64,000 nt of DNA from Macrocystis pyrifera (taxonomy: Eukaryota; Sar; Phaeophyceae; Laminariales; Laminariaceae), in assembly GCA_031763025.1 (NCBI GenBank), contig JASSKH010000003.1, positions 15,186,992-15,250,991 on the forward strand, in the 5' to 3' direction. Each line of letters starts with the position of its first letter. Position 1 is the first letter of the stretch. This document shows, piece by piece, positions 1 to 42,881 of this stretch. The translations under genes and the position numbers were made by a program. Under the pieces are notes generated by a model that had not been told where the DNA came from, did no database searches, and was given only the letters and a program-made list of their open reading frames with translations.

Positions 1-3000
1 CAAGTCCCCGCTCACACCTGCAGTCCCGGCGTCTGGCGATCGGATCGACACCGCCCCACTGCTCGTCGTTGTACCCGATCCACTTAATATCGTCACGGCA
101 CCTCCCGTGGCATCAGTTGACAGCCCGGCCGTCATCTGCACAAGACCACCAGCCCCGCTGTCAGTGTCGCCCACGGTCAGACTCAGGAGCCCGGCCTGCC
201 CATTCGTGGCTGCCCCGCTGCCGATCATGACGCTGCCTGTGTTGCCGGACGTGGTGGAACCCGAGCTGAAGGCCATGGTACCACTGTTGCCTGTGGTGCC
301 GGCTGCGGCCGACAAGATGGTGACCGTCCCGCTGTTTCCGGTGGTGACGGCCCCGCTCGTCATCTCGACCACACCACCACCGGTATCACCGCTGCCACCC
401 ACAATCGTCACGGAGCCTCCATCAGACGAGGTGCTACCTCCGGCCGACACGCTCACGTCTCCTCCGTCGCCTGAGCCCCCAAGACCGGCTTTGATGCTGA
501 CGGCCCCGCCCATCGTGCCTCCTTCGCCCGCGTCGACGGTGACTGCCCCACCAGCATCGGTAATGCCTTCTCCAGCCACCACAGTGAATGCTCCGCCAGT
601 GAACCCGAGGCCCGCCGCCGTGATCACGGCACCGCCGGTCGATGTAGAGCCAGTCCCGGCTGCCACCGATACCGGTCCGCCCGTAACTCCGGTACCGGCA
701 GCGAGCGTGAGCGACCCTCCTGTAGTAAACGTGCTTGTACCCACCGTCAGACTCACCGCTCCTCCAGCGCCCGACGTGGCTGCACCACTACCTACCCATG
801 AGTACCGTGCCGCTGTCGCCGGAGCTGCTGCTGCCCGAGCTGAACACCATGTCCCCGCTCACACCTGCAGTCCCGGCATCTGGCGATCGGATCGATACCG
901 CCCCACTGCTCGTCGTTGTACCCGCTCCACTTGAGATTGTCATCGCACCTCCCGTGGTATCCGTTGACAGCCCGGCAGCCATCTGCACAAGACCACCAGC
1001 TCCGCTGTCAGTATCTCCCACGGTCAGACTCAGGAACCCGGCCTGTCCATTCGTGGCCGCGCCGCTGCCGATCATGACGCTGCCGGTGTTGCCGGACGTT
1101 GTGGAACCTGAGCTGAAGGCCATAGTACCGCTATTGCCTGAGCTTCCCGCAGGCGCCGACTTGATGGTGATGCCTCCACTGTTGCCGATCCCGACGTCTC
1201 CACTCGTCACGGCTACAAGACCACCACCGGTAGCCCCGTGCCCGGCAGTAATAATAACTTTGCCTCCGGTAGTGGCCCCTTCGCCTGCAGTGAATGAAAT
1301 TTTCTCCACCCGCAGAGACGGTTCCAATGCCTGCCGTGATATCGATCTCACCACCTGCACTTCCCAGACCAGCCGCAACGCTTACACTACCACCCGTCGA
1401 CGTAGAACCAGTGCCGGCTGCCACCGACACCAGTCCACCCGTGACTCCGGTACCGGCAGCGAGCGTGAGTGACCCTCCTGTGGTAAACGTGCTCGTACCC
1501 ACCGTCAGACTCACCGCTCCTCCAGCGCCCGACGTGGCCGCACCACTGCCGATCGACACCGCGCCGCTGTTGCCGGAGCTGCTGCTGCCCCGAGCTGAAC
1601 ACCAAGTCCCCGCTCACACCTGCAGTCCCCGCATCTGGCGATCGGATCGACACCGCCCCACTGCTCGTCGTGGTACCCGATCCACTTAATATCGTCACGG
1701 CACCTCCCGTGGTATCAGTTGACAGCCCAGAAGTCATCTGCACAAGACCACCAGCCCCGCTGTCAGTGTCGCCCACGGTCAGACTCAGGAGCCCGGCCTG
1801 CCCATTCGTGGCTGCCCCGCTGCCGATCATGACGCTGCCGGTATTTCCGGACGTTGTGGAACCCGAGCTGAAGGCCATGGCACCACTGTTGCCTGTGGTG
1901 CCGGCTGCGGCCGACAAGATGGTGACCGTCCCGCTGTTTCCGGTGGTGACGGCCCCGCTCGTCACGTCGACCACACCACCACCAGCATCACCACTGCCAC
2001 CCACAATCGTCACGGATCCCCCCTCAGCCGAGGTGCTACCTCCGGCCGACACGCTCACGTCTCCTCCGTCGCCTGAGCCCCCAAGACCGGCTTTGATGCT
2101 GACGGCTCCACCCACCGTGCCTCCTTCGCCCGCGTCGACGGTGACTGCCCCACCAGCATCGGTGACGCCTTCTCCAGCCACCACAGCGAACGCTCCGCCA
2201 GTGTACCCGAGGCCCGCGGCCGTGCTCACGGCACCCCCAGTCGATGTAGAGCCAGTTCCAGCTGCCACCGACACCAGTCCGCCCGTAACTCCGGTACCGG
2301 CAGCGAGCGTGAGCGACCCTCCTGTAGTAAACGTGCTTGTACCCACCGTCAGACTCACCGCTCCTCCAGCGCCCGACGTGGCCGCGCCACTACCCATGAG
2401 TACCGTGCCGCTGTCGCCGGAGCTGCTACTGCCCGAGCTGAACACCAAGCCTCCACTGACACCTGCAGTCCCCGCATCTGGCGATCGGATCGACACCGCC
2501 CCACTGCTCGTCGTTGTACCCGATCCACTTAATATCGTCACGGCACCTCCCGTGGTATCCGTTGACAGCCCGGCCGTCAACTGCACAAGACTACCAGCCC
2601 CGCTGTCAGTGTCGCCCACGGTCAGACTCAGGAGCCCGGCCTGCCCGCCAGTTGCTTTGCCGCTGCCGATCATGACGCTGCCGGTATTTCCGGACGTGGT
2701 AGCACCCGAGCTGAAGGCCATGGTACCACTGTTGCCTGTGGTTCCGGCTGCGGCCGACAAAATATTGACTGCCCCGCTGTTTCCGGTGGTGACGGCCCCG
2801 CTCGTCACGTCGACCACACCACCACCAGTATCACCGCTACCGCCAACAATCGTCACGGAGCCCCCCTCAGACGAGGTGCTACCTCCGGCCGACACGCTCA
2901 CGTCTCCTCCGTCGCCTGAGCCCCCAAGGCCGGCCTTGATGCTGACGGCTCCACCCACCGTGGCTCCTTCGCCCGCGACGACGGTGATGGCGCCACCACC

Positions 3001-4510
3001 ATCGGTCGTGCCTTCTCCAGCCACCACAGCGAACGCTCCGCCAGTGGACCCGATTCCTGCCGCCGTGCTCACGGCCCCACCCGTCGATGTAGAGCCAGTT
3101 CCAGCTGCCACTGATACCAGTCCGCCCGTAACACCGGTACCAGCAGCGAGCGTGAGCGATCCTCCTGTAGTAAACGTGCTTGTACCCACCGTCAGACTCA
3201 CCGCTCCTCCAGCGCCCGACGTGGCCGCACCACTGCCGATCAGTACCGTGCCGCTGTCGCCGGAGCTGCTGCTGCCCGAGCTGAACACCAAGTCCCCGCT
3301 CACACCTGCAGTCCCCGCATCTGGCGATCGGATCGATACCGCCCCACTGCTCGTCGTGGTACCCGATCCACTTGAAATCATCACGGCACCTCCCGTGGTA
3401 TCCGTTGACAGCCCAGAAGTCATCTGCACAAGACCACCAGCCCCGCTGTCAGTGTCGCCCACGGTCAGACTCAGGAGCCCGGCCTGCCCATTCGTGGCTG
3501 CCCCGCTGCCGATCATGACGCTGCCTGTGTTGCCGGACGTTGTGGAACCCGAGCTGAAGGCCATGGCACCACTGTTGCCTGTGGTGCCGGCTGCGGCCGA
3601 CAAGATGGTGACCGTCCCGCTGTTTCCGGTGGTGACGGCCCCGCTCGTCACGTCGACCACACCACCACCGGTATCACCGCTGCCACCAACAATCGTCACG
3701 GATCCCCCCTCAGCCGAGGTGCTACCTCCGGCCGACACGCTCACGTCTCCTCCGTCGCCTGAGCCCCCAAGACCGGCTTTGATGCTGACGGCTCCACCCA
3801 CCGTGCCTCCTTCGCCCGCGGCGACCGTGACTGCCCCACCAGCATCGGTGACGCCTTCTCCAGCCACAACGACGAATGCTCCGCCAGTGTACCCGAGGCC
3901 CGCCGCCGTGCTCACGGCACCCCCAGTCGATGTAGAACCAGTCCCGGCTGCCACCGACACCAGTCCGCCCGTAACTCCGGTACCGGCAGCGAGCGTGAGC
4001 GACCCTCCTGTAGTAAACGTGCTTGTACCCACCGTCAGACTCACCGCTCCTCCAGCGCCCGACGTGGCCGCGCCACTACCCATGAATACCGTGCCGCTGT
4101 CGCCAGAGCTGCTGCTGCCCGAGCTGAACACCACGCCGCCGCTCACACCTGCAGTCCCCGCATCTGGCGATCGGATCGATACCGCCCCACTGCTCGTCGT
4201 TGTACCCGATCCACTTAAAATAGTCACGGCACCTCCCGTGGTATCCGTTGACAGTCCGGCCGCCAACTGCACAAGACCACCAGCTCCGCTGTCAGTGTCG
4301 CCCACGGTCAGACTCAGGAGCCCGGCCTGCCCATTCGTGGCCGTGCCGCTGCCGATCATGACGCTGCCGGTGTTTCCGGACGTGGTAGCACCCGAGCTGA
4401 AGGCCATGGTGCCACTATTGCCTGTAGTGCCGGCTGCGGCCGACAAGATGGTGACCGTCCCACTGTTTCCGGTTGTGACGGCACCGCTTGTCACTTCGAC
4501 TACACCACCA
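1..4510 (-). repeat. Higher-order repeat array, left block (843-bp units)
   Basis: The anchor gcatctggcgatcgg (gcgtctggcg in the first copy) occurs at 29, 876, 1631, 2474, 3317 and 4160. Spacings are 847, 755, 843, 843 and 843. The 847 equals 843 plus a 4-bp tandem duplication (ctac) at 788-795. The 755 equals 753 plus two 1-bp insertions (about 1305 and 1588-1591). The left and right blocks share the 843-bp period but differ in sequence, so each block was homogenised separately. The array continues past the window edge. Confidence 0.88.
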
Positions 4511-7500
4511 CCCGTCGCTCCCTGCCCCGCAGTAATCGTCAATGAACCACCTGTAATGCTGGTGCTTGTACCGGAAGAAACGCTCACATCCCCTCCAAGG
4601 CCTGATCCACCGAGTCCTGCAGCAATTGATACTGATCCACCTGTCTCACCACCTTCTCCTGCTTTCACAAACAGCGCCCCGCCCGAGTTTAGTACCCCTT
4701 GTCCGGCAGATATGCTCATTGAGCCACCGCTTGAAGCTCCAAGCCCTCCTGCAAACGTTACAACCCCACCGGTATCGCTTAGTCCTATTCCCGCGGCGAC
4801 GTTAACAGCACCACCCGTGGATGCGTCCCCAGCACCCATATTCACAGCACCGCCTGTGCCTGTCGTGCCTGTACCCGCTGCCAATGATACGGCACCACCG
4901 GCTACACCCGTCCCCGCCGCCAAAGTCAGCGCACCCCCCAATGAAGAGGTGCTCGTGCCTACCGTGAGACTAACCGCACCACCTGCCCCCGAGGACGCAG
5001 CACCGCTGCCAATGAGCACCGTGCCGCTGTTACCGGAGCTCGAGGACCCCGAGCTGAATACGAGATCACCGCTCACCCCATTCGCGCCGGCATTGGGCGA
5101 CCGAATCGTCACCGCCCCACTGGTGGTGTCAGCGCCCTCGCCGCTGGTTATCGTCACGGAGCCCCCCGTGGCCACAGTCGACTCGCCAGCCACCACTCGC
5201 ACCAGGCCTCCCGCGTCGCTATCGCCGCTGCCGACGGTCAGACTCAGAAGGCCTCCTGTGCCACCGGCAGCAGCGCCGCTGCCGATCATAATGGCACCAC
5301 TGTCGCCCGAGGTTGTTGACCCTGAGCTGAATGTCATCATTCCACTGTTGCCTGTCGTGCCGGCTGCAAATGAGACGATCGTGACCGTACCGCTGTTGCC
5401 GTCGGTGACAGCCCCACTGGACACAGCAACACGCCCGCCGCCGGTTGCCCCTTGGCCCGCCACCATGGTCAACGCACCTCCGGTGACGTCATTGCTGATG
5501 CCTGCTGATACACTCACGTCACCCCCTAGACCTGAATCACCCAACCCGGCCGCTATGCTGACAGCACCGCCTTCAGCTGCCCCTTGCCCTGCAGTGACGG
5601 TAATCGCCCCTCCAGCGTCTGCGTTGCCCTGGCCAGCCTCGATCGAAAATGCACCCCCCGTATTACCGACGCCGGCGGCCATACTCACAGCACCGCCTGT
5701 GCCTGTCGTGCCTGTACCCGCTGCCAAAGATACGGCACCACCGGCTACACCCGTCCCCGCCGCCAAAGTCAACGCACCCCCCAATGAAGAGGTGCTCGTG
5801 CCTACCGTGAGACTAACCGCACCACCTGCCCCCGAGGACGCGGCACCGCTGCCAATGAGCACCGTGCCGCTGTCACCGGAGCTAGAGGACCCCGAGCTGA
5901 ATACGAGATCACCGCTCACCCCATTCGCGCCGGCATTGGGCGACCGAATCGTCACCGCCCCACTGGTGGTGTCAGCGCCCTCGCCGCTGGTTATCGTCAC
6001 GGAGCCCCCCGTGGCCACAGTCGACTCGCCAGCCACCACTCGCACCAGGCCTCCCGCGTCGCTATCGCCGCTGCCGACGGTCAGACTCAGAAGGCCTCCT
6101 GTGCCACCGGCAGCAGCGCCGCTGCCGATCATAATGGCACCACTGTCGCCCGAGGTTGTTGACCCTGAGCTGAATGTCATCATTCCACTGTTGCCTGTCG
6201 TGCCGGCTGCGAATGAGACGATCGTGACCGTACCGCTGTTGCCGTCGGTGACAGCCCCACTGGACACAGCAACACGCCCGCCGCCGGTTGCCCCTTGGCC
6301 CGCCACCATGGTCAACGCACCTCCGGTGACGTCATTGCTGATGCCTGCTGATACACTCACGTCACCTCCTAGACCTGAATCACCCAACCCGGCCGCTATG
6401 CTGACAGCACCGCCTTCAGCTGCCCCTTGCCCTGCAGTGACGGTAATCGCCCCTCCAGCGTCTGCGTTGCCCTGGCCAGCCTCGATCGAAAATGCACCAC
6501 CGGTGTTACCGACGCCGGCGGCCATACTCACAGCACCGCCTGTGCCTGTCGTGCCTGTACCCGCTGCCAAAGATACGGCACCACCGGCTACACCCGTCCC
6601 CGCCGCCAAAGTCAGCGCACCCCCCAACGAAGAGGTGCTCGTGCCTACCGTGAGACTAACCGCACCACCTGCCCCCGAGGACGCGGCACCGCTGCCAATG
6701 AGCACCGTGCCGCTGTCACCGGAGCTCGAGGACCCCGAGCTGAATACGAGATCACCGCTCACCCCATTCGCGCCGGCATTGGGCGACCGAATCGTCACCG
6801 CCCCACTGGTGGTGTCAGCGCCCTCGCCGCTGGTTATCGTTACGGAGCCCCCCGTGGCCACAGTCGACTCGCCAGCCACCACTCGCACCAGACCTCCCGC
6901 GTCGCTATCGCCGCTGCCGACGGTCAGACTCAGAAGGCCTCCCGTGCCACCGGCAGCAGCGCCGCTGCCGATCATAATGGCACCACTGTCGCCCGAGGTT
7001 GTTGACCCTGAGCTGAATGTCATCATTCCACTGTCGCCTGTCGTCCCCCCCTGGCGCAGAAGCAAATACAACTGGTCCACTATCTCCCGTTGTCGCGTCT
7101 CCGCTTGTAATGCTTACAGTACCGCCATTATTTCCGCCGAGTCCCGCGGCCATGGTGAGGTCACCTCCATCCGTCAAACCTTCGCCAGCAAATATCGAAA
7201 CCGAGCCACCGGAATCGGCCGTTCCCCGTCCGGCCTCGATCGAAAATGCACCCCCCGTATTACCATCGCCGGCGGCCATACTCACAGCACCGCCTGTGCC
7301 TGTCGTGCCTGTACCCGCTGCCAATGATACGGCACCACCGGCTACACCCGTCCCCGCCGCCAAAGTCAGCGCACCCCCCAATGAAGAGGTGCTCGTGCCT
7401 ACCGTGAGACTAACCGCACCACCTGCCCCCGAGGACGCGGAACCGCTGCCAATGAGCACCGTGCCGCTGTCACCGGAGCTAGAGGACCCCGAGCTGAATA

Positions 7501-10500
7501 CGAGATCACCGCTCACCCCATTCGCGCCGGCATTGGGCGACCGAATCGTCACCGCCCCACTGGTGGTGTCAGCGCCCTCGCCGCTGGTTATCGTTACGGA
7601 GCCCCCCGTGGCCACAGTCGACTCGCCAGCCACCACTCGCACCAGACCTCCCGCGTCGCTATCGCCGCTGCCGACGGTCAGACTCAGAAGGCCTCCTGTG
7701 CCACCGGCAGCAGCGCCGCTGCCGATCATAATGGCACCACTGTCGCCCGAGGTTGTTGACCCTGAGCTGAATGTCATCATTCCACTGTTGCCTGTCGTGC
7801 CGGCTGCAAATGAGACGATCGTGACCGTACCGCTGTTGCCGTCGGTGACAGCCCCACTGGACACAGCAACACGCCCGCCGCCGGTTGCCCCTTGGCCCGC
7901 CACCATGGTCAACGCACCTCCGGTGACGTCATTGCTGATGCCTGCTGATACACTCACGTCACCTCCTAGACCTGAATCACCCAACCCGGCCGCTATGCTG
8001 ACAGCACCGCCTTCAGCTGCCCCTTGCCCTGCAGTGACGGTAATCGCCCCTCCAGCGTCTGCGTTGCCCTGGCCAGCCTCGATCGAAAATGCACCACCGG
8101 TGTTACCGACGCCGGCGGCCATACTCACAGCACCGCCTGTGCCTGTCGTGCCTGTACCCGCTGCCAATGATACGGCACCACCGGCTACACCCGTCCCCGC
8201 CGCCAAAGTCAGCGCACCCCCCAATGAAGAGGTGCTCGTGCCTACCGTGAGACTAACCGCACCACCTGCCCCCGAGGACGCGGCACCGCTGCCAATGAGC
8301 ACCGTGCCGCTGTCACCGGAGCTAGAGGACCCCGAGCTGAATACGAGATCACCGCTCACCCCATTCGCGCCGGCATTGGGCGACCGAACCGTCACCGCCC
8401 CACTGGTGGTGTCAGCGCCCTCGCCGCTGGTTATCGTTACGGAGCCCCCCGTGGCCACAGTCGACTCGCCAGCCACCACTCGCACCAGACCTCCCGCGTC
8501 GCTATCGCCGCTGCCGACGGTCAGACTCAGAAGGCCTCCCGTGCCACCGGCAGCAGCGCCGCTGCCGATCATAATGGCACCACTGTCGCCCGAGGTTGTT
8601 GACCCTGAGCTGAATGTCATCATTCCACTGTCGCCTGTCGTCCCCCCTGGCGCAGAGGCAAATACAACTGGTCCACTATCTCCCGTTGTCGCGTCTCCGC
8701 TTGTAATGCTTACAGTACCGCCATTATTTCCGCCGAGTCCCGCGGTCATGGTGAGGTCACCCCCATCCGTCAAACCTGCGCCAGCAAATATCGAAACCGA
8801 GCCACCGGAATCGGCCGTTCCCCGTCCGGCCTCGATCGAAAATGCACCCCCCGTATTACCATCGCCGGCGGCCATACTCACAGCACCGCCTGTGCCTGTC
8901 GTGCCTGTACCCGCTGCCAATGATACGGCACCACCGGCTACACCCGTCCCCGCCGCCAAAGTCAGCGCACCCCCCCCAATGAAGAGATGCTCGTGCCTAC
9001 CGTGAGACTAACCGCACCACCTGCCCCCGAGGACGCGGAACCGCTGCCAATGAGCACCGTGCCGCTGTCACCGGAGCTCGAGGACCCCGAGCTGAATACG
9101 AGATCACCGCTCACCCCATTCGCGCCGGCATTGGGCGACCGAACCGTCACCGCCCCACTGGTGGTGTCAGCGCCCTCGCCGCTGGTTATCGTTACGGAGC
9201 CCCCCGTGGCCACAGTCGACTCGCCAGCCACCACTCGCACCAGACCTCCCGCGTCGCTATCGCCGCTGCCGACGGTCAGACTCAGAAGGCCTCCTGTGCC
9301 ACCGGCAGCAGCGCCGCTGCCGATCATAATGGCACCACTGTCGCCCGAGGTTGTTGACCCTGAGCTGAAGGTCATCATACCGCTGGACCCACTTAGCCCG
9401 GCATTCGAGGATCGAACGATAACTGCTCCTGAGGTTGTTGATGTCCCTTCTCCGCTAGCGATATGTACAATGCCACCGGTTAATACCGTACTTTGTCCAG
9501 CATAGAGCTGAAGTAGCCCTCCAGATCCACTGTCTCCACTGCCTACAGTCAAGCTTACCATGCCTCCTCTGCCTGTGGAGCTGGCCCCGGACCCAATCAA
9601 TATTTCACCGCTGTTACCTAGGCTGGTTGCGCCAGAACTGAATGCCAGGTACCCACTTGTTCCTGCCGTCCCAGCATCCGCTGATTGAACCACAACCGAA
9701 CCGCTGCTTGTGGCCGCACCAACACCGCTTGCGATAGAGACGTCCCCTCCCGTCATCACCGTACTTATGCCTGCATATATTTCTATGGATCCACCAGACC
9801 CGCTGTCACCGCTCCCTACCACAAGGCTGAGTTTTCCTCCGCGTCCACCGGTGCTTGCTCCACTCCCCAAGAGAATGGCACCGGTGTTGCCGGCGCTGCT
9901 TGTTCCTGAGCTGAATGTAATCGTGCCGCTCACGCCGCTGCTACCAGCATTTGCCGTGCGAAGCGATATCGACCCGCTTGAGGAGTACTGGCTGTATCCA
10001 GAGGTGATTGAAATTAAGCCTCCCGTAAGACCAGATGCAGTTTTGGTGGCTCCGGCACTCAAAGCAATATCCCCCCCAGCTCCACTTGTTCCTGTGCCCA
10101 CTTCAAGCTCAATATCGCCACCTTTTCCACTGGTCGCTTGTCCCGTGACGATGGTGATGGCTCCAGTATCGCCGCTGCTGCTTGTACCAGTGTTGAAAGC
10201 CAGGACCCCACTGGCGCCAGCGGTACCTGCATTGGATGACTTGATGTATACTGCACCACTGGTACTGTATGATGAGTATCCCGACTGGAACAGCAAGTCG
10301 CCTCCCGTTGCTACCGCACTTGAACCAGACAAGATGTTTACGTCCCCACCATCTTCAGCATCAGACACGCCAACCTCTATAGTTACGCTTCCGCTTTGTG
10401 GGCCGTCACCCGTGCTGAGCAGAATGTCACCCGCAATACCAGAGCTGGCCGTCCCTGTATCAAAGTATAGAGTGCCGCTGCGTCCACTGCGCCCTGCGTT

Positions 10501-13500
10501 GACAGTTCGAACAAAAATATCACCGCTTGTCGTTGCGGTGCCCCGCCCACTTTCAATGACCACGCTGCCACCTGTAGCCGCGGTACTTTCCCCGGACCGC
10601 ACCAAAATTTCGCCGCCCTCACCAATTCCACCACTACCAACCACGACGCTAATCATACCTGCCCGCCCATCTTCAGCACTACCCGATCCGATTTCGATGC
10701 TCCCACTGTTACCCTCTGAACTTATACCAGAAACGAACGTCAAACTACCACTACTACCATCTCGGCCGCCATTCGCTGTTTGGACAACAATATCTCCGCT
10801 CGAATCTTCGCCTCCGTATCCACTGCTTAAGAGAACCGACCCCCCTTTTGACGCAGAGCTTTCTCCCGCTTCAATGAAGATGTCGCCACCATCACCAGAG
10901 ATAGGGTTTGTCCCCATGCCAGCCACAATCAAAACAGAGCCCCCTTTGCGTTCAAGATCTGCAGCGTCGCCTGCGAACATGCTAACGCCGCCGCCGTCAC
11001 CGCTTGCGCCTGCACCAACGGCGAGAGTGATGGACCCACCACGACCCGTTTGCGCATTAGCTGTCGTCAGTAAAACTTCCCCGGTATTTCCTCGGCTTGA
11101 AGTTCCAGTAGTAAGCGCGATGGAGCCACTGGCTCCAACGAATCCAGAGTTCGCTGTTTTAATTAGTATGTCTCCACTGCTGCTCCACTCGCTTCTTCCT
11201 CCCTCCAGCAAGATACTACCACCCGTGAGTAAATATGTGTCCCCTGCGCGTAGCGACAGCACCCCTCCTACGCCACTGTTGCCAGCGCCGACCGAAATGT
11301 CCACCGCACCACCGCTTCCCCCCCATCCGCGCGTCCTGTACCGATGCTGATAGCTCCTGAGTTGCCAGATCCTGACGAACCTGACCGTAGCACAACAGAC
11401 CCGCTAACACCGGTGGCACCCGCGTCAAGCGAGCGGATAGATATTGCACCACTCGTTGCACCGGTCCCTTCACCGCTCAGTAATGATACCGATCCACCTA
11501 TTCCGCCAGACCCAACGCCGGCGGTCAGAGTGACGTTACCCCCCCCCCCCGCCCTGTCTGCTCGTGCCAGATCCTGCAGACAGCACAATAGATCCTCCTG
11601 GTTCGTCATCGGCTGTGGTGTTTCCTGCTGTCATTGACACGGAACCACCGCTCCCACTGGCACCTTTGCCAACGGCTAGCGTTACCCCCCCCCCCCCGGT
11701 AGACCCCTCGGTAGCATTTCCCGTGGCCATATAGATTGCTCCTGTATTTCCTAGTAGACTTGACCCAGTGTACAGTTGAGCTTCCCCGCTAGAACCCTTG
11801 TCACTCTGGGCATCTGCAGTTGACAAGACAGCTCGACCGCTGCTTTTCCCGTGCAAAGAGCTGCTTCCAGTTCCAGACGAAAGAATGACACTTCCACCAC
11901 TTCCCCCTTGCGAAGAACCTGCTAATATTCCTATATCACCTCCTGCCCCAACTGCACCCGTGCTATTCCCCGCTCTGAACGACAGCGATCCTCCAGTGCC
12001 TGATACGTCACCTCCTCCTTGCGGAAATGCGTTGCCCGCCGACACTTCGATAGTTCCTCCTGCTTTATTAGGATCAGTCTGGTTACCGGCCGAGAGGTAC
12101 ACATCAAAAGGTGACATACTGACCATGGCAGACCCTGCGCCTTCTTCTCCCACGCGCAAACGGATACCTCCGGCCTCTCCACCGTATTCCGCGGATCCAG
12201 TGGTCAGAGCAATCGCGCCACTGTCGCCCAATGATGCCGTCCCCGTCGAGATCGTGACAGAGCCACTGGCACCCGTTGGATTGGAGTTAGAGTATGACCC
12301 ACCGGCTTCAGTCGCGACCGTGATATCGCCGCTCTTCTCCCCGGAGTTGGGTCCGAAGCTGAAGTGCTTGTGCTGTGACTGCATAGCTGATATGAGGTCA
12401 AGTGCAAGTGCGACCTTGTCCACCTGTTGAAAATCGCTAATCGCAAAGTTCTGGTCGGGAAGGTCGAAGTCGGAGATAGTTTCGACGTGCTCTGGAAATA
12501 CCTCGGCTAGCTGCTGCGCGATTACCCCTCGAACCCGCGGGTTGCCTTCGAGGTTTCGAACTTCGCGCCACTCCTCCGTGTATGCGTACTCCACCATCTC
12601 CACTTCCATGAACCGCTGAAGAACGTCATCGACATCGACGTCAATGACGCTTTCCTTTATCCTCTCGTCGGATGAGTACTGGATAGTGGTGACCTGCAGC
12701 GGAACGTTTGCCACCACACGCGGCTCGCCTTCTTCAAACTCTTGCAGCCTGAAATCATACTCGACGGGTTCATTCTCGAGGCTGTCCACAGGATGAGTGA
12801 TACTGAATCCAATGACGTTTTTCGTGGTTTTGTCACCGGCGGGCACAGTCAGATAGATCCCCCCGCCGTCCCCACTCGTCACGCTCACGTCATCATCTGA
12901 CGTCACGATCCGTTGGTCCCCCGTCGACGATTGTACCTCTGCGGTACCGTTCAGGAGTCCACCACGTCCAGGCCTCAATACGATACCGCCTCCCGTACCA
13001 CCGCTGCCCGTACTGTTTCCTGATAATAATACCAGCGCCCCACCGTCCCCAGAGGGATCTCCGTTGGACGGAGCCGTAGATCCTGCCGCAATCTCGATCC
13101 GACCCCCGGCCTCTGAAGCGTCTGCTTGTTGTCCGGCGGAAACCCAGACGCCGAGCTCTGACATGTGGACGCCGGGTCCATCTCCGCCAGTGCCGCCAAC
13201 TTCGATGGCGATGCTTCCAGGCCTGTTTCCATTTCCTGAAGGGCCAGTGGTCAGAGCAATCGCGCCACTGTCGCCCAATGATGCCGTCCCCGTCGAGATC
13301 GTAACAGAGCCACTGGCACCCGTTGGATTGGAGTTAGAGTATGACCCACCGGCTTCAGTCGCGACCGTGATATCGCCGCTCTTCTCCCCGGAGTTGGGTC
13401 CGAAGCTGAAGTGCTTGTGCTGTGACTGCATGGCTGATATGAGGTCAAGTGTAAGTGCGACCTTGTCCACCTGTTGAAAATCGCTAATCGCAAAGTTCTG

Positions 13501-16500
13501 GTCGGGAAGGTCGAAGTCGGAGATAGTTTCGACGTGCTCTGGAAATACCTCGGCTAGCTGCTGCGCGATTACCCCTCGAACCCGCGGGTTGCCTTCGAGG
13601 TTTCGAACTTCGCGCCACTCCTCCGTGTATGCGTACTCCACCATTTCCACTTCCATGAACCGCTGAAGAACGTCATCGACATCGACGTCAATGACGCTTT
13701 CCTTTATCCTCTCGTCGGATGAGTACTGGATAGTGGTGACCTGCAGCGGAACGTTTGCCACCACACGCGGCTCGCCGTCTTCAAACTCTTGAAGCCTGAA
13801 ATCATACTCGACGGGTTCATTCTCGAGGCTGTCCACAGGATGAGTGATACTGAATCCAATGACGTTTTTCGTGGTTTTGTCACCGGCGGGCACAGTCAGA
13901 TAGATCCCCCCGCCGTCCCCACTCGTCACGCTCACGTCATCATCTGACGTCACGATCCGTTGGTCCCCCGTCGACGATTGTACCTCTGCGGTACCGTTCA
14001 GGAGTCCACCACGTCCAGGCCTCAATACGATACCGCCTCCCGTACCACCGCTGCCCGTACTGTTTCCTGATAATAATACCAGCGCCCCACCGTCCCCAGA
14101 GGGATCTCCGTTGGACGGAGCCGTAGATCCTGCCGCAATCTCGATCCGACCCCCGGCCTCTGAAGCGTCTGCTTGTTGTCCGGCGGAAACCCAGACGCCG
14201 AGCTCTGACATGTGGACGCCGGGTCCATCTCCGCCAGTGCCGCCAACTTCGATGGCGATGCTTCCAGGCCTGTTTCCATTTCCTGAAGGGCCAGTGGTCA
14301 GAGCAATCGCGCCACTGTCGCCCAATGATGCCGTCCCCGTCGAGATCGTAACAGAGCCACTGGCACCCGTTGGATTGGAGTTAGAGTATGACCCACCGGC
14401 TTCAGTCGCGACCGTGATATCGCCGCTCTTCTCCCCGGAGTTGGGTCCGAAGCTGAAGTGCTTGTGCTGTGACTGCATGGCTGATATGAGGTCAAGTGTA
14501 AGTGCGACCTTGTCCACCTGTTGAAAATCGCTAATCGCAAAGTTCTGGTCGGGAAGGTCGAAGTCGGAGATAGTTTCGACGTGCTCTGGAAATACCTCGG
14601 CTAGCTGCTGCGCGATTACCCCTCGAACCCGCGGGTTGCCTTCGAGGTTTCGAACTTCGCGCCACTCCTCCGTGTATGCGTACTCCACCATCTCCACTTC
14701 CATGAACCGCTGAAGAACGTCATCGACATCGACGTCAATGACGCTTTCCTTTATCCTCTCGTCGGATGAGTACTGGATAGTGGTGACCTGCAGCGGAACG
14801 TTTGCCACCACACGCGGCTCGCCTTCTTCAAACTCTTGCAGCCTGAAATCATACTCGACGGGTTCATTCTCGAGGCTGTCCACAGGATGAGTGATACTGA
14901 ATCCAATGACGTTTTTCGTGGTTTTGTCACCGGCGGGTACAGTCAGGTAGATTCCACCATTGACGCCACTCGAGAGAGAGACATCGTCATCTGACGTCGC
15001 GATGCGTTCGGCCCCTGTTGACGCTTGAATATCGACTTTACCGTTGGTCACATCGCCCTCTCCGGGGCGAATCATGACACGTCCCCCAATACCGCCATCA
15101 GCTGACCCTGCGTTCAAGACGATGTCTCCACCGACTTCAAGCGGGATAGCATTGCGACGGTCGCGTCCCTTACCAGGTGATGACGCTCCACCCAATATCT
15201 CAACTCCACCACCAGGACCAATCATACCTTGCCCACCGACGATTTTGACGGCGCCACCAACTCCATCAATACCCCGCCGTTCGTTACCTGCTCCCGTTCC
15301 GGCCGTAATTATTACATCGCCACCTAATCCGTGAGTTGCCTGGCCAGCCTGTAGGGTTATACCACCCCCTTTTTTGGCGGGGCCCTCTGTGTCGCCGGCA
15401 GTGATCATGGTCTGGCCTCCATCTGAAGATCTTGCAACACCAACCCGTGCAAATATGCCGCCACTGGTCGAAGCATTCCCTGTGGTGAGCAAAACCGACC
15501 CGGACGGCCCAGAGGAAGAGTCCCCGGTGGACATACGAATGCCACCACTTTGTCCATTTTTATCTGCGTGTGAAGTACGTAGGGCCAATCCTCCGCTGGC
15601 TCCGTGCCAGCTTCTTCCTGATTGAATCATAACTGAGCCTCCTGTTTGACCCTGCAGGGTCTCGGTTGTTCCGGCAGTGATGTTTACGTCGCCGCCCTTT
15701 CCTACAGCGCCGGGTCCAACGGACAAAGTAATTCCGCCGCCAGAGCCGGAAACCGAGCGCCCGGTTCTGAATGTCAATTCTCCCGACTGACCCCGAGTCG
15801 AATTTCCTGTAGACATTGTTATATTCCCACTGGTGCCAGAGCGGCCTGCGCTTGCGGTTTCTACCCGCACTGACCCGCTAGTCGCGTCTTTGCTAACACC
15901 GGTTGTGATGACAACTGATCCACCCGTGCCTTTAGCTGCAGGCCCTCCGCGCATGCTGACAAATCCCCCACGATCTGCCAGATTTCCACCTTGCGCTTCG
16001 CCACCCTGGATATTGACGCCTCCTCCTCGCCCACCACCTGCTCCATGTCGGTTACTTCCGACGCCTCCGATGAATGACAATGCACCGCCGACTCCTTGGC
16101 GAGCACTTGATTCACCTGCCCTAAGATTGATAGCACCACCCTGCGGACCAGACCCTGGTCCGGCTACAAAGTCCAGGGTGCCTCCACCTCCCGTGACCGC
16201 CGTTCCAGTACCGACAAGAAGAGACCCGGAATCACCAAGTGTCGATGACCCTGTAGACAATACGACGTTACCGCTCACACCAGCTGGTCCCGAGTTCGCC
16301 GTGAGGATCACGATTGGCCCACTGGACGAAGCCTCCCCAGAGCCTGACTGCAGAAGTATGGAGCCACCAGTGGCGGCGGCGGCCGGGCCTGCTGTGAGTT
16401 CGATGTTGCCTCCCGGGTCGCTTTTTGGATCTAAACCGTGCGCCCGCCCAGCATCCATAAAAATAGAACCACCATCCCCACCGCCGCCATGACTGCTTCC

Positions 16501-19500
16501 TTTGGCCGCACTAAGCCCGTCTCCTGCCGCCATCAAAATGTCGCCCCCACGCTGTCCTTTTGCCGTTGTATCTCCGGCCCGCAACATCACGGCTCCGCCG
16601 TCATTTTTCGCTCCAGTACCGACAAAGAGCTCGATATTACCGCCGGAATCGCCCCCAGCATCTCCGGTGGTGAGAACCAGCCCACCAGAAGTGCCTTCGG
16701 GACTGTGGCCCGTAGAAAGAGCCGCCCGCCCACTATCTCCCTGGCGCCCAGCGTTAACAGTTTGCAATATTAATGCGCCACTGCTTGACCCGAACGAGTG
16801 CCCAGTACGAATCGAAACGTTCCCGCCGACTTCTCCGTGAGTGTCTCCTGCGATGAGAGTGATGTCGCCTCCTTCTCCCGAGTCACCTGTTCCAACGTAC
16901 ACCTGGAAGCTGCCGCCGCGGCCATGGGCAGCGGTGCCAGTCTGAATGCTGATCGTCCCTGAGTCGCCTCGGCTCGATGTGCCTGAGTATAGAGAGATAC
17001 CTCCACTAATTCCGGCTTCTCCAGCATTAGCAGTCGACAAGTGGATTGGCCCGCTTGAGCTGTGCTCTCCGTACCCACTTCGAAACTGCATCGCCCCGCC
17101 GCGACCTTGTCGAGAAAACCCCCCAGCAACTTCAACACTCCCTCCATCATCTCCCGAGCCCCCCCCTTGCCCCGCCCCTCCAAAAATCTGAACGCGACCA
17201 CCGTCGCCGCCATTGTAGCGGTCCCGGTTACTTCCTTCCCCGGCAACAAGGAGGATATCGCCACCCACGGCTTCCGATGCCTTTGTCTCTCCCGCGGCCA
17301 GGATGATGTCTCCTCCCCCCCCTTCGGAACCAGGCCCGACTGCGACAAGAACATCCCCACCATGGCCGTTTTCCGCCGCGCCTGTAACCAGCTGAATCGT
17401 GCCGCTTTCACCATGACTAGACGTTCCCGTTGAGAGTAGAAGCCCCCCGCTGGTACCGGCATCCCCTGCATTCGACGTGCGGAGAATGATCATTCCGCTC
17501 GATGTGCGGCTGCTATACCCGCCACTGATGGCGATGCTTCCTCCATAGGCCTTGTCGGTGGTCATGCCCGCCGTAACTTCAACGTTTCCACCAGATCCCG
17601 AGTCACCGTCACCCACACGAACGATAACACTTCCTCCTCCTCCGACTTGGGCATTTCCGGTCGAAAGAGACGCACTACCGCTTGAGCCGTAGTTAGAAAT
17701 ACCAGTGCGAATAGATACGTTACCACTGGATCCCTGTATGCCGGCGTCGCCGGTTTGTACAACAACGGATCCGCTGGAACTTAGCGTGCTCAGGCCCGAT
17801 CCTATAAACACGTGACCGCCGCTACCGGCAAATGAGATCCCGCCGTGCAAATCTATATGGCCGCCGCCATCACTGCTGGATTGTCCTTTAGCTGAACCAC
17901 CAGCGATGTGAACATCTCCTCCGTTCCCGCCATCAGTATGATGGGGGTTGGAGCCTTCACCACCCTTCTATCATCACCTTACCTCCTGCCCCACCAATGG
18001 CGGAAGTCCGACCGGCAGAAAGCTTAACATCGCCTCCATCCCCATAGTCGCCCTCACCAACGGACAAGTAAATGGACCCCCCCGCACCAGCGGTGGCTGC
18101 ACCCGTGTTCATGAATATACTACCAGACGTTGCAGCAAGGGAGTCACCGGTCGACGATGAGATGTCACCGCTGGCGCCATCGATTCCCGATGCCGACGTC
18201 GAGAGCGAGACGGGACCGCTTGAACCTCCACCGCTTGTGCCAGACTGAACACTTACGCCCCCGCCGCGGCCGGCAACAGAATCACCACCAATAATTTCTA
18301 CTGTACCGCCACGGTCGAGGACTGACGTTCCCTTCGAGCTTCCACCGCTCACTACGACCGGACCACCGTCGCCCCCGTCCCCCTCGTCCGCACTGGATCC
18401 TTCCCCAGCTGTGACGAAAACGGTACCTCCTCGTGCACCCGTAGCCGAGGTATCACCCGCGTACAGGTACAGATCTCCACCATCACCAGTGCCGCCGGTG
18501 CCGACAAATACCCCGACAGCACCCCCCGCTCCCTCTGGCGCATCGCCAGAACCAAGTAGTACCGTTCCAGAGTCGCCGCTGCTGGATGTCCCAGTGGAGG
18601 CGACAATCATTCCACTCGGCGCGAAGCCTAGGGTATTACTGGTGGAAATGAGTATAGCTCCACTCGCAGACACGTCGCTTGCTCCACTGCGGAGCTCTAC
18701 TGCCCCACCCGTACTTGCTGAGCTGGTGCCACCTACCATAGATACGATTCCACCAGCCCCGTCAACGGCAGACCCGCCAGAAAGAACGATATCTCCACCG
18801 TTTCCGGTGCCGCCTCCCACGTCCGTTCCGGAAGCACCTCCTCCGGATATAGACACCGTACCGCCGGCGCCGCCGTCGGCGTTGGTCCCATCTCCAGCAC
18901 TGAGAAATACGGCGCCGCCGACCCCATCAACAGCGCTGGTGTTTCCTGCCATGAACTCGATGTCACCACCGGAGCCAACCAAATCAGCTCCGCCAATGCT
19001 GAAAACGATATCGCCGGCGTCTCCGTCCGTCGAGGATCCGGTTTGAAACTCGATGTCTCCGGCACTCCCGTCCGTAGCCTGCCCTGTACTCAGAATAATC
19101 GCTCCAGATACACCTTGCGGGCCCGCATCCATGGTCTGTATCAGAACGTCGCCACTAGAGCTTACCGTACCTGAACCGCCAGAAATTCGAACCCCTCCGC
19201 CTGTTTGATGACTGCTGGTGCCGGCAGTGATTACTACCCACCCTCCAACTCCTGAATCCCCGCTACCAACGGACATCCGAATGTCGCCAGCGCCACCTCC
19301 AGCAGCATCCCCTGAGAGGATTGAGATTTCTCCCGTGTTCCCGGCAGAAGATGTACCGGTGAGCAATTGCAATACACCGCTAACCCCCGATGTTCCTGCA
19401 TTCGCGGTGGTGATAGTAGCGCCACCGCTTGACGTAAGCCTGCCGACACCCGTGGAAAGAAGCAGAGCGCCGCCGGTGCTTGCTGCGGCGGAACCACCTG

Positions 19501-22500
19501 TAAGCAACACCATGCCTCCTAGGTCAGAGGGTCCCAAACCGGACGCCTCGCCCCCCTTAACTAACACATCACCTCCCGATCCACCCTCGTAGGAAGAAGG
19601 GTCGGTGCCTGCCCCAGCTGTAATCAACACATTTCCTCCAATGGCCGAGGGTGCGGTCGAGTCACCTGCGGAAATTTCGACGGATCCTCCGTCCCCGCCG
19701 TTGCCGCTACCGACGGCGAGGGTGATCTGCCCACCCTTACCGCCAACGGCAGAGTTCGTGACCAACGAGATTGAACCCGAGTCCGCGGCGCTAGCGGCGC
19801 CCGTCCTCAAGAGCAAATCACCGCTGGCGCCTGCAACGCCGCTGTTGGCAGTTTGTAAGTACACGCCTCCACTGGAACCATTCGTGGCATACCCGGATTG
19901 GACACGCACGCTGCCCCCCGGAGCGGTGCTGTCGGCCGTGTCTCCCGCCGTTACCGTTACATCGGAACCTTGTCCTGTGCCTGTTACCCCCGACTACAAT
20001 GCTGATGAAGCCGGCCTCGCCCTCGATGGCTTCACCGGTTTCCAGGACGATCGATCCGGTGCCATTGGTCATTGAGTCCCCGGACGACACGACAACATCA
20101 CCGCTGGCGGCTGTACCCTGACCGTCACCCGAGCGTACATTCACCTGCCCGGAAGTGATGCCCTGGCTTGACCCACTGGTAAGAGACACATCTCCTCCGG
20201 TCCCACTTTCGCTCGTCCCTCCGGCAATGTCCAAACCCCCGCCGACCCCTTCTATCGAAGCACCCCCGGTGATATCCACGCTTCCACCTGCACCCACGTC
20301 GCCTCCGAAAGCCTCAAGCCCTTCCGCAACCCCGCCGCTGATCGAAACCCTGCCGCCACTTCCACCGATGGGGTTGACCCCGTTACCGGCGGAAAGCGAG
20401 ATGGCGCCTCCGGCGTCATTGGCATTCTGAGAATCTCCGGAGAAGACGCTAGCGTCGCCGCCGGACTGAACCCGAAACGATGTCTCGTTCAAAACCAAGG
20501 AGAAGTCCACGCCAGAGTCTGTAAAACCAGACGCCGATAGTTCCCCCCCGCCAAACTGAGGATCGGCTTCGACGATGAGGTTGCCCACAACCCGATTTTC
20601 TACGGCAGGGACAAACGCGCGATGACAACCCATGAGCACGGCGAAAAAAATTGTAGCGTTGTACTGCAACTGTTATCTGGTTGCCCGGGAGCGCAGAGGA
20701 GCAAGCGTTCTGCAACGTACTGGTATATAGCGTGCAGCAACAGGCGATGAGAATAATTAACTTAGGAGAGCGAAGCATAGAGCCGGCAAAACGTCGTTTT
20801 AACAAAACAGCTCGGACGAACGAATGCGCATTTGTTCCATCTGCAGGACTCTACCTCTCCGAACCACCGCACCTTGTGAGTGGCATAGATTTTCTTCTAT
20901 ACTTTTGATTTTGGCGGGCATAACTTGAACGTTTAGGCGCAATCGCCAACATCTAATATGTGATAACCGTTGGCATGTACTGGTATAGTACAAGCGGAGT
21001 TAGCAAGGTGCTGCGTCATCAAACGAAGGGACACTCACGAATGTTTGCCTGCGAGGTAGGTGATACGTTTTGCAACCCTGTGGGCATTCCTTTGTGCAAA
21101 CAACGTTGAAAAATATGAGGAAAACATCCACACACAGAAAGTGAAGGTTGACCCTATTTAGTGCCTGAGGTCACCATGGAGACCAAAAGCCATACAATTC
21201 CATCACCAGCTCTTGTAGTAGCGCTTTTCTCGTATTCCTTCTCACTTTGAGGTGCAAGAACGTGGACTGCGGCGATCCCCTCCCCATCTCACCCCACCAG
21301 TCCATAAAAAATATCCCCGACCGTCGAATGGTGCTGAGTTTATGTACACAACGTCGCGATTATTGAGTAGAATGAGTGCAAAGAGCTGTAGGTTAATCTT
21401 GATGGCACGTGCGACAATTAAGAAGCTTTTCGCCGCTCACCATGCTAGCGAAAGCGTCACTGGCTCAATCTATGTAAGGCTTACACAGATACTTCGTAAA
21501 TGTTTAAGACAGATATTCTTGACCTCCGTTACTTTCTTGGTTTTGATAACAGCGTTGAGTGGTGCATAGATATTACCTGCCACGAAGGACGTCGGACAGG
21601 GAAGATCAAACACAGTTCCGCGGCAGTCAATGCTGAATATCTCTGAGACGGTCAGGCACGCCCCCTCGGAAGCGCACCACGCACAGTCTTCGTCTTCCGC
21701 ACATGATGCGCACTCCGGATACTCGCTGCACCTCGGGGTCTCTGAAGATTCCGTGGCGTTTTCGAGGTGGAGACGGAGAACGGCAGCGCAAAAGAAAATC
21801 ATCGTGACTTCTTTGACAGAGCAAATGTAGTGATGTACGTGCAACATTGCTGCAGATGCTGCTTTAATTTCAGTGAATTGTCGCGTTGATCACCGCTTCA
21901 GAACTAAAAACAGAGCGAGCTGCTATTTTCTCTGTCGCCAGACCTTGTTCGAATATTAGGAGCATTGATTCACTGTGCATCGCGCCCCTTTGGCTCGCTG
22001 CTTCAGTCCACGGCGGGCATTCACCTTAGTACTCGCTGCGTAAGCACAGCCTGGTTCGGTGGCAACACGGCCACGTTCATCTTGACCTAGCACTCTCTCG
22101 AAATTTTAGTACTGCGAAAAACTATCCCACACTATAATAAATACAAGTAGTGTGTTCCCATACACTTGGGTGCAGTTCGAAAGGGGCTAACGTCTTGCTC
22201 CATTTACGATGAGCGGCATAACTTGCGGGGCAGTAATCGATAGAATGGGTGACAAGAGGATCTCCATAGGTAGTACAGTAGTTCTCTCAAGCACACAGGC
22301 TGACCTATATATATATGTATACATGTATACATATAGCGCCGAATCGTAGCATTCAATTCCACTCTCGAGCCCACGTGTAGTACCAACTCTCACCCGGGCA
22401 AACGTCTGCCTCGAAAATCCACGACGGGCACGGCGACCCGTCCGACGGCCCGATAGAAGTGCCATCGACACATTGAAGCGTGGACAAGCAGTAACCGCAG

Positions 22501-22542
22501 CCTCCCACGTCAACGCAGTCCGTGCAATTGCCAACATCAGTC
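1..22542 (-). CDS. Giant PSI / glycine-rich repeat / triple peptidase-S74 protein gene (partial, frame-disrupted)
   Basis: The gene reads right to left. Exon 22542-22394 (PSI 1), exon 21741-21577 (PSI 2) and one exon from 20599 to beyond position 1 join in matching phase 1 (donors GTGAGA and GTAATA; acceptors end TTCAG and CGTAG). The large exon encodes about 6,860 residues of Gly/Ser/Thr-rich repeats of the form GGxVxIxAG or SGxLxFxTG, with three S74 domains near visible residues 2050, 2400 and 2750. The pattern suggests stacked beta strands (a beta-solenoid or trimeric fibre); that is inference. PSI domains imply an extracellular or secretory location. The frame breaks at about 19987, 17963, 11539, 11318, 8970, 7045, 1588, 1305 and 788, mostly in C/G runs. 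So the copy is either a decaying gene or carries assembly indels. The acceptor of PSI exon 1 is in phase 2, so at least one upstream exon (signal peptide) is missing from this model. I cannot name an orthologue. Confidence 0.78.
5030..9370 (-). repeat. Higher-order repeat array, right block (843/753-bp units)
   Basis: The anchor ggcattgggcgaccga occurs at 5089, 5932, 6775, 7529, 8372 and 9127. Spacings are 843, 843, 754, 843 and 755. The 754 and 755 values equal a 753-bp (251-residue) unit plus the homopolymer excess at 7045-7051 (C7 against C6 in the sister copy) and 8970-8977 (C8 against C6). Units are nearly identical and encode 281 or 251 residues. Confidence 0.9.
9370..12196 (-). CDS. 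Middle diverged Gly-rich repeat region of the giant protein
   Basis: Same strand-turn repeat grammar as the N-terminal region, with little nucleotide repetition. Frame breaks lie at a C12 run (11539-11550, where 11 would keep the frame) and a C7 run (11318-11324, where 5 or 8 would). A C13 run at 11685-11697 is in frame. Translation on either side of each run continues the repeat pattern directly, for example GGNVTLTAG after the first and AVDISVGAG after the second. Confidence 0.7.
12360..12696 (-). other. Peptidase S74 domain, copy 3
   Basis: Third tandem copy, again 1,047 bp further along. The serine codon is at 12670-12672 and the lysine codon at 12655-12657. It carries ALALD where copies 1 and 2 have ALTLD. 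After it the protein returns to Gly-rich repeats for at least 4,000 more residues, so the domain is not at the end of the chain. Confidence 0.85.
13407..13743 (-). other. Peptidase S74 domain, copy 2
   Basis: Almost identical to copy 1 and exactly 1,047 bp away. The serine codon is at 13717-13719 and the lysine codon at 13702-13704. A visible protein difference just upstream of the domain is EFEDGEP in place of EFEEGEP. The dyad and the GVIAQQ block are intact. A Gly-rich stretch of about 150 residues separates it from copy 1, so cleavage at both sites would release a 349-residue piece. Confidence 0.85.
14454..14790 (-). other. Peptidase S74 (intramolecular chaperone) domain, copy 1
   Basis: The domain runs from VTTIQYSSDERIKES to LISAMQSQHKHF. 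The S-D-E-R-I-K signature places a serine (codon 14764-14766) five residues before a lysine (codon 14749-14751). This is the spacing of the catalytic Ser-Lys dyad in phage tailspike S74 domains. Later family blocks RGVIAQQLAEVFPEHV and VDKVALTLDLISAM are present. In known members the domain trimerises, assists beta-helix folding and cleaves itself just before the serine. Here it is internal, near visible residue 2050, not C-terminal. A conserved linker of about 85 residues precedes it (IATSDDDVSL through VANVPLQ). Confidence 0.85.
15050..20599 (-). CDS. N-terminal glycine-rich repeat region of the giant protein
   Basis: About 1,850 codons begin with a non-repetitive lead (VVGNLIVEADPQFGG). 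Irregular repeats of roughly 13-17 residues follow, each with a hydrophobic-x-hydrophobic strand framed by GG or SG turns. Repeats here are diverged from each other, unlike the near-identical 3' arrays. Two breaks occur: a C5 run at 19987-19991, where C4 would restore the frame, and near 17963, where one extra base makes a TGA stop. After a one-base shift the same repeat logic resumes at both places. There is no RTX-type Asp pattern and no collagen Gly-X-Y pattern. Confidence 0.72.
21577..21741 (-). CDS. Exon encoding PSI-like domain 2
   Basis: This 165-bp exon has introns in phase 1 on both sides. It encodes CSEYPECASCAEDEDCAWC, a further cysteine in the GACLTV segment, then SIDCRG and LPCPTSF. 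The cysteine spacing matches PSI 1, so the two exons look like a duplicated module. The acceptor follows a long pyrimidine-rich stretch ending TCTTCAG and the donor is GTGGCAG/GTAATAT. Joined to the exon starting at 20599, it reads into the segment NRVVGNLIVEADPQFGG. Confidence 0.74.
22394..22542 (-). CDS. Exon encoding PSI-like domain 1
   Basis: This 149-bp exon encodes about 49 residues with six cysteines spaced as in plexin-semaphorin-integrin (PSI) domains: NCTDCVDVGGCGYC, then C-V-D-G, then GSPCPSW and VCPG. The acceptor follows CAACAAAG, with a branch-point-like TTCTAAT about 35 nt upstream. The donor is CCCGG/GTGAGAG. It starts in phase 2 and ends in phase 1, which joins exactly to the next PSI exon. 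The alternative of a separate short cysteine-rich gene is less likely because the phases of all three exons agree. Confidence 0.72.
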
Positions 22543-22599
22543 CTTTGTTGTGGAGGAGCGAACACGACGCATTAGAATCACACGAAGGAGGCGGACAAG

Positions 22600-27865: not shown

Positions 27866-28603
27866 GCCTAACAAAGTACCAGGTAAGAGGTTTTGCAGCG
27901 GATCGCCCACTCTGCCTATTTCGTGTACTCGAGTACGCACGAAACGTAGGGGGGGAATATTTATTTTCCGAATTCGGGGAGACGAAATGGATGAATATAG
28001 GTGAAGTGAAAGGGGTCGCTATTTCGATTGGAGAATGTTTTAGGGTAACCGAGAACATACAATATAGTCGGGGGAGACAATTAGTATCACGTCCAAATGA
28101 TCAGTATTCGACAAAGCGGATCGATGTTCCGAAGATTGACGTAAACCTGGAAGTATTATTAATATAAGTTTTCAATGTTTAGGGAGATTTTGTATTCCTC
28201 AAAACATACAGCTTTGAATTTTGTACACTATTAATAGGACGATTTTATTGTTATTGGTTAACCCATAATAACTAAAACAAATGTTACGTTCAAGGAGAGG
28301 GTCAAGGTCTCAAGCAAACATCACACGCTCCATACCCAACAGTTTTTTCGTCAGGTAGCATAGTAGTAGTGGGAGTAGTACCCCAGTAAAAGAGTACGTA
28401 TATTATTAGTAGTGTACCTGGTATAGCAGTACTATTAATAGTGGTATATGGGACCGGCTAAGAGAAGGAGCACCTATTTTATAGCACTAAATATACGTAT
28501 CATACTCCTGCTGCACGTATCGTCTGTTGTACCTGCTAATTATTCATACTACAATAGTGGTAGTGATAGAGGTACGAGTATTGATATAGTAGGAGGAGGA
28601 GGA

Positions 28604-28944
<341 letters not shown>

Positions 28945-29331: not shown

Positions 29332-29604
29332 TAAAAAATGCTGAAGGGCGCTCACAAAACAGTACCTGGAATTGTATTCGTACGAACATGTATTTATTTT
29401 ACAAGCACAAACAGTTGCTGTACAAAATACCTGGTACCAAGTGCCATGCGGCGTGATGTGCGCGTTTCGACTTTCGAGCTTGACGAAGTTGCAGAAACTT
29501 ACCAAAATTCTCCTGTGTCAACAGAGTAGTCCTGGCAGACCTGGCCAGCAACGAATCGCCACGCCCCAGCGAGTGCGAGAAGCCAGTATCCTGCGGTAAT
29601 AAGT

Positions 29605-29638
29605 GGCACCGGGCGGCCCGAAGGCGCCCGGTGTTGCC
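29605..29638. other. GC-rich hairpin
   Basis: Stem caccgggcg (29607-29615) pairs perfectly with cgcccggtg (29625-29633) around a 9-nt loop. Isolated in AT-rich DNA; function unknown. Confidence 0.4.
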
Positions 29639-42854: not shown

Positions 42855-42881
42855 GTGACCTATCCCCTCCCGAGCCGTCCA

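Follow-up and report, generated by a model that had tools for sequence, protein, structure and literature searches.

A candidate giant fibre gene with PSI and internal S74 domains in the brown alga Macrocystis pyrifera

The 64,000 nucleotide stretch of Macrocystis pyrifera DNA analysed here, referred to as the window (contig JASSKH010000003.1, C211:15186992-15250991), forms part of a 537 Mb genome assembled into 223 contigs. Its minus strand carries two exons encoding PSI domains followed, from position 20599, by a giant exon of glycine-rich repeats among which lie three Peptidase_S74 (S74) domains (Table 1), which together probably constitute, to judge from their sequence, a live eukaryotic gene encoding a secreted structural fibre of megadalton size. 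The PSI exons are joined to one another and to the giant exon across GT-AG introns in phase 1, which retain the reading frame when the splicing is checked on the DNA, as had been proposed in an earlier note on this stretch, and a gene model linking both PSI exons to the repeat exon is consistent with these genomic splice signals. When spliced, the two exons match the Pfam PSI family in two stretches at 32.7 bits (cut-off 23.1 bits), identifying them as encoding PSI domains; the second exon alone also exceeds the cut-off (26.8 bits, in the open reading frame (ORF) piece 21473-21799), whereas the first alone scores 18.8 bits, under the cut-off, and the raw ORF containing it (22356-22571) returned no match in a Pfam scan at E 1. 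A C-x2-C-x5-C-x2-C-x5-C spacing is common to both. The 6,887 residues counted by frame blocks from position 20672, of which around 24 precede the splice acceptor and to which the PSI exons add around 104, make the earlier figure of over 6,900 residues in view a fair one.

The repeat unit of the large exon is a 15-residue, glycine-rich rung consisting of GGxhxhxxG and a turn. In 5,960 window residues, a sample leaving out the S74 stretch, there are 307 such motifs, whereas 100 shuffles gave 31 on average and never more than 46. The autocorrelation of glycine peaks at a lag of 15; the strand-turn repeats recognised in the earlier note are hence present far above chance. In part of the exon, approximately six rungs at a time are organised into 91-residue modules.

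The exon had been described as over 20.5 kb long in view, but its true extent is around 85.8 kb, as repeat ORFs run leftward for 65 kb beyond the window before reaching a stop. A path following the frame through the full exon encodes 28,594 residues, or around 2.5 MDa, with 1,552 rung motifs, three cysteines and, as its sole stop, the last codon. To our knowledge, a protein of around 28,600 residues and a coding exon of around 86 kb would rank among the largest known. The C-terminal stretch is free of repeats and has no PHROG match, nothing significant in the PDB and no match among the proteins compared here. Among the repeat lags, the eight most frequent (2439, 4878, 843, 2421, 834, 4842, 7317 and 1587) are all multiples of three, as are 16 of the 25 listed; the nine that are not could be explained by frame changes inside units. 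The gene probably expanded largely through in-frame tandem duplication of units of, for example, 281, 349 and 813 codons. As the units are near-identical, the exact length of the exon depends on the assembly.

The three S74 domains previously reported were recovered as three stretches of the minus strand ORF 11536-17967 matching PF13884, with a score for the whole protein of 134.5 bits (cut-off 22 bits), such that both the PSI and S74 profiles score above their thresholds, and in a genome-wide six-frame search each scored 52 bits. Around 2,050 residues separate them from the beginning of the PSI exons, and around 26,000 from the C terminus. The three copies are 99% identical at the protein level and are borne on tandem 1,047 bp units. 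All three retain the Ser-Lys dyad (SDxRxK), the serine and lysine of which share alignment columns with those of three phage S74 domains and MYRF; in the four-sequence alignment of the window domain with the three phage domains, the S-D and K of this motif are invariant. Roles for the dyad are described in PMC8326128 and PMC3742443. The MYRF chain 7dc3 has alanine at the position of the dyad serine, matching the S587A mutant described in PMC8326128.

Relatives of this protein (P0001) were found in a set of around eight thousand sequences: 11 proteins among 7,989 scored with P0001 itself, nine among 7,990, itself included, with P0006, and 35 among 7,989 scored with a six-protein profile, a group that may include fibres of viruses or phages, for example P0038. 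P0006 is collinear with P0001 (39% identity over 2,116 columns) and has three internal S74 domains by Pfam, and P0017 is 36% identical over 1,610 columns, with three S74 domains by motif and alignment. These two proteins, from NCBI contigs, share the rung type of the window gene with P0011 and P0021, although P0021 is without an S74 domain; the relative proteins may be fragments. A eukaryotic source label is given only to P0011 and P0021, both from EukProt, the latter deriving from the transcriptome project MMETSP (MMETSP0034, taxid 156128, labelled Nephroselmis pyriformis). Pfam scans of 17 of the 40 relatives found S74 above the cut-off in six, kringle in three and EGF in two, and no PSI domain in P0006, P0011 or P0021, while precomputed domains in the search tables give S74 for P0017, P0018 and P0019 and kringle for P0009. 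The N termini of P0012, P0014 and P0021 are hydrophobic and, by eye, resemble signal peptides. The earlier proposal that the window protein is secreted therefore draws support from the EGF and kringle domains and signal-like N termini of its relatives, but its own gene offers only an unproven candidate signal exon, selected by eye from five filter-passing rows, representing three donor sites, between 22543 and 30000.

Between the S74 domains of the window and those of P0006 and P0017, identity is 48-52%, compared with 45% for P0011, 32% for P0013 and P0018, 21% for P0014, 26-27% for the three phage domains and 28% for the MYRF fragment. In a tree of these domains, the window copies group together (97/99), and the first and third copies of P0006 pair with the first and third of P0017 (98/99 and 99/95), the second copies being unresolved; as their first and third copies pair in this way, the triple arrangement is older than the split between P0006 and P0017, whereas the window copies arose by amplification of one or were homogenised. 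The deep branches are long and weakly supported, so the tree is compatible with either a viral or a MYRF-like origin of the domain.

A six-frame search of the genome, in which all nine candidates were scored, returned five S74 matches, although this approach can miss a domain divided between exons. A second S74 gene (L013, C207:2287300-2297200) was observed by eye as a 1,328-residue repeat ORF running into the start of an S74 domain, and is 29% identical to the EGF-type protein P0014, 25% identical to P0001 and also similar to the EGF-bearing P0019. Its S74 domain comes after the repeats, rather than among them as in the window gene. At a further locus (L012, C206:7409600-7419500), a short ORF encodes the C-terminal portion of an S74 domain, followed by a glutamine-rich stretch, with no ORF containing two or more rung motifs in the vicinity.

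S74 domains act as one-shot folding clamps in phage spikes and as a switch in MYRF. Trimming of the window protein by its built-in S74 domains is plausible, as the dyad serine and lysine are present in all three copies, and trimerisation of the S74-bearing chains would follow by analogy with phage S74 proteins and MYRF. The S74 domains might instead be trimerisation clamps without protease activity, leaving one uncut fibre of around 28,700 residues. Among ten S74 copies from relatives, all retain the lysine and the rest of the domain, whereas the serine is kept in seven and replaced by alanine in two (the third copy of P0006 and the second of P0017) and aspartate in one (the third of P0017). 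This count drops a shifted duplicate row of P0011, though that row was included in the tree; P0013 and P0018 each have an incomplete second copy, with serine, which fell outside the alignment, as did the copy of P0019. The serine losses favour the clamp reading and the intact dyads of the window gene speak against it; an uncut fibre is considered somewhat unlikely.

The giant exon was originally taken to be a single open frame, which does not stand: as assembled, its visible part (20599 to 1) contains nine changes of frame. These nine shifts, which are among 16 listed in the window, the other seven being upstream of the exon, rise to 22 over the whole exon, and each requires one or two bases. 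Introns at the frame changes were considered and rejected, as the path needs shifts of this size (one being a 4-base duplication) and no intron-sized gap. Four of the breaks could be compared with sister units, revealing an extra G in three cases and the 4-base duplication, at position 793, in the other. Homopolymers of at least five bases lie within 14 bases of ten of the 22 changes, while such zones make up 7% of the sequence; the other 12 are away from such runs. Read errors fit many of the changes, though not surely all of them.

The differences between repeat units allow selection on the gene to be assessed. Seven 843 bp units give 21 pairs, of which the 18 above 60% identity were counted and three dropped. 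In the minus frame, the ratio of replacement to synonymous substitution rates (dN/dS) was 0.00-0.20 in 15 of the 18, with dS saturated (above 2) in nine of these, and the 99% identical pairs had synonymous to replacement differences of 6:1, 8:1 and 8:0. The remaining three pairs, all involving unit 7053_643, had dN/dS of 0.56-0.59; the next spacing after this unit is 310 rather than 281 codons, so part of it is out of register. In the two remaining minus frames, values were around 1 to 4 where defined. Outside the window, near-identical comparisons, one in each of five segments, gave ratios of replacement to synonymous proportions (pN/pS) of 0.23, 0.20 (2 to 1), 0.00 (1 to 0) and 0.27, the ratio for the remaining segment being undefined as its copies had no differences. 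Ten further, poorly aligned comparisons of 40-46% identity had values of 0.71-0.85. A long ORF on the opposite strand (1487-7327, plus, 1,946 amino acids) is taken as a shadow: its frame has intermediate ratios and more replacement differences than the minus frame in all four unit pairs compared, by a small margin (9, 33.5, 27.5 and 1, compared with 7, 27.2, 23.2 and 0).

These results bear on whether the locus is a decaying pseudogene, a recently functional fibre gene in which the frame changes are real mutations. Such decay would account for 22 changes in 85.8 kb, for the duplication at 793 and for the 12 changes distant from homopolymers, but not for the concentration of the other ten near such runs or for a frame-following path whose only stop is the final one. 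As the differences between the 99% identical units are mostly synonymous, selection acted after the recent unit duplications; the same predominance of synonymous differences between units is the reason for regarding the gene as live, and a pseudogene is judged unlikely.

Taken together, the repeats and S74 also match a phage profile. The tail fibre profile phrog_1980 spans the repeats and the S74 domain in P0001 (98 bits), P0006 (113 bits) and P0011 (73 bits), though it has no match in P0021. Comparison of a predicted structure of about 12 rungs with known and modelled structures returned one match under E 0.001, an uncultured Caudovirales phage protein in BFVD (8.3e-5). This suggests that these proteins and phage fibres have shaft and S74 in common as one unit, without fixing a date or direction for the sharing. 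No phage sequence matched the S74 unit at E 1e-5 or, with the BLAST low-complexity filter on, the repeats at E 1e-3, and the 203 phage records matching the S74 domain at E 1 are all under 60% identity. No relative was found in IMG/VR by two pattern scans, able to find close relatives only, or in prokaryote genomes by one pattern scan, and an NCBIfam scan returned nothing relevant. Phage S74 fibres and tailspikes, such as gp22 of Achromobacter phage 83-24 and members of PHROG 1980, have in common with the window protein the S-D and K of SDxRxK and the match spanning repeats and S74. However, in three phage fibres S74 ends around 14-35 codons from the C terminus, and the window gene departs from the C-terminal placement of a phage tail fibre domain in having three internal copies, with around 26,000 residues after them.

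Among the neighbours of the gene are retrotransposons (Table 1). Adjoining the copia-type element are reverse transcriptase-like ORFs recognised by eye, and the ORF of the retrotransposon lacking long terminal repeats (non-LTR) seems, also by eye, to run on in another frame past 50673.

Table 1. Features of the giant gene and its surroundings; positions are those of the window, negative values lie beyond it and a slash marks a splice junction.
Feature	Position	Strand	Details
PSI-like exon 1	22542-22394	-	149 bases; acceptor AAAG/G, donor CCCGG/GTGAGA; ends in phase 1
PSI exon 2	21741-21577	-	165 bases; GT-AG; phase 1 on both sides
Giant repeat exon, visible part	20599-1	-	Acceptor CCGTAG/A; runs beyond window to -65214 (C211:15121777)
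Continuation of exon past window	C211:15121777-15186991 (-65214 to 0)	-	Repeat ORFs run leftward 65 kb to stop
Repeat shaft between PSI exons and first S74	14950-20597	-	15-residue rungs
1,047 bp (349-codon) tandem units	12201-14950	-	Around 99% identical at that lag; hold the three S74 copies
Peptidase_S74 copy 1	14578-14766	-	Putative catalytic Ser codon 14764-14766, Lys codon 14749-14751
Peptidase_S74 copy 2	13531-13719	-	Putative catalytic Ser codon 13717-13719
Peptidase_S74 copy 3	12484-12672	-	Putative catalytic Ser codon 12670-12672
843 bp units (281 codons; one of 310 codons)	1591-8407	-	Synonymous differences dominate between similar units
Candidate signal peptide first exon	29503-29645	-	Donor GTAAGT; phase 2, that in which the exon at 22542 begins; unproven
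TAG microsatellite	28587-28943		119 units, 96% matches
Minisatellite-like tandem arrays, 45/91 and 63/127 bp	40864-41257 and 45744-46411		Beside copia element
Copia-type retrotransposon	41465-45266	-	Pol_BBD and zinc knuckle exceed cut-off; integrase core falls short of it
Non-LTR retrotransposon	47260-51410	+	Endonuclease and reverse transcriptase
Copia-type gag ORF	51562-52398	-	Retrotran_gag_2
Helicase exons, probably DEAH type	59963-63376	-	Helicase_C above cut-off; motif of 10 protein letters by eye

The likeness to phage tail fibre profiles raises the question of a viral insertion, in which the gene would be that for the fibre of a giant virus, or of a polinton-like virus, that had integrated. 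In PMC12220804, S74 genes are described as ubiquitous in the polinton-like viruses of most eukaryotic groups, ochrophytes excepted, and these fibres, like the window protein, are long, modular and repetitive with S74; yet they are viral, at most 3.9k residues long and have a single, often C-terminal, S74 domain. The window gene, by contrast, is composed of spliced exons in a 537 Mb genome with retrotransposon neighbours, not of a viral genome: GT-AG introns link its repeat exon to the PSI exons, the domains in ten scanned ORFs were those of retrotransposons and helicases, and no viral hallmark gene was recognised by eye among those listed. Together with the absence of close relatives from the IMG/VR scans and the EGF or kringle domains of its relatives, this makes a viral insertion very unlikely. 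An intracellular MYRF-like regulator is more improbable still, despite the MYRF ICA domain being the best PDB sequence match of the window S74 (E 2.1e-8, 28% identity over 103 columns), and MYRF and MrfA being likewise eukaryotic proteins with S74 internal to a longer chain and the dyad columns shared, because the window protein has a PSI head and giant repeats, its relatives have EGF and kringle domains, and no NDT80-type DNA-binding or MYRF C-terminal domain was found in the pieces given to Pfam.

Several points weigh against a live gene for a secreted fibre, besides the frame changes, the substituted serines and the three pairs with higher dN/dS described above. The single candidate signal exon is unproven and unlinked to the PSI exons. 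The number of repeats may be misassembled. The AlphaFold model of the rungs, a monomer, is of moderate quality, with a predicted local distance difference test (pLDDT) score of 75.6 in a set of five models ranging from 40.6 to 75.6, and the rungs had no match in the PDB; that of the S74 domain was poor (pLDDT 50.7) and rejected as unusable, its Foldseek list being without an S74 structure. Finally, P0021 matched no PHROG and no Pfam family.

If the gene does encode such a secreted fibre, the chain would enter the secretory path and join two others at the S74 domains, in the manner of phage tailspikes and MYRF, and these domains would assist the folding of the rungs into a stiff shaft rich in beta structure. 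Each S74 domain may then cut just before its own serine, separating the PSI-headed fibre of around 2,050 residues from a very long C-terminal shaft and yielding, in addition to these products of around 2,050 and 26,000 residues, two of 349. If each rung extends the shaft by around half a nanometre, as in beta-solenoids, its length would approach a micrometre. Outside the cell, the fibre might contribute to wall, surface hair, scale or adhesive material or, as the earlier note proposed, to defence.

S74 fibres are already known from phages, and the part for which searches of the open-licence PMC literature returned no description is the presence of internal, repeated S74 domains in a spliced, PSI-headed eukaryotic giant. 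A broader proposal can be advanced tentatively, with slightly less than even confidence: that the gene represents a widespread, undescribed class of algal and protist extracellular fibres sharing the phage tail fibre cassette, with S74 set internally as repeated assembly and cutting stations and joined to domains such as PSI, EGF and kringle. Three internal copies in a megadalton eukaryotic fibre, with some copies inactivated in relatives, would show S74 serving serially as a station for assembly, and would connect the modules of phage fibres with extracellular material of algae or protists.

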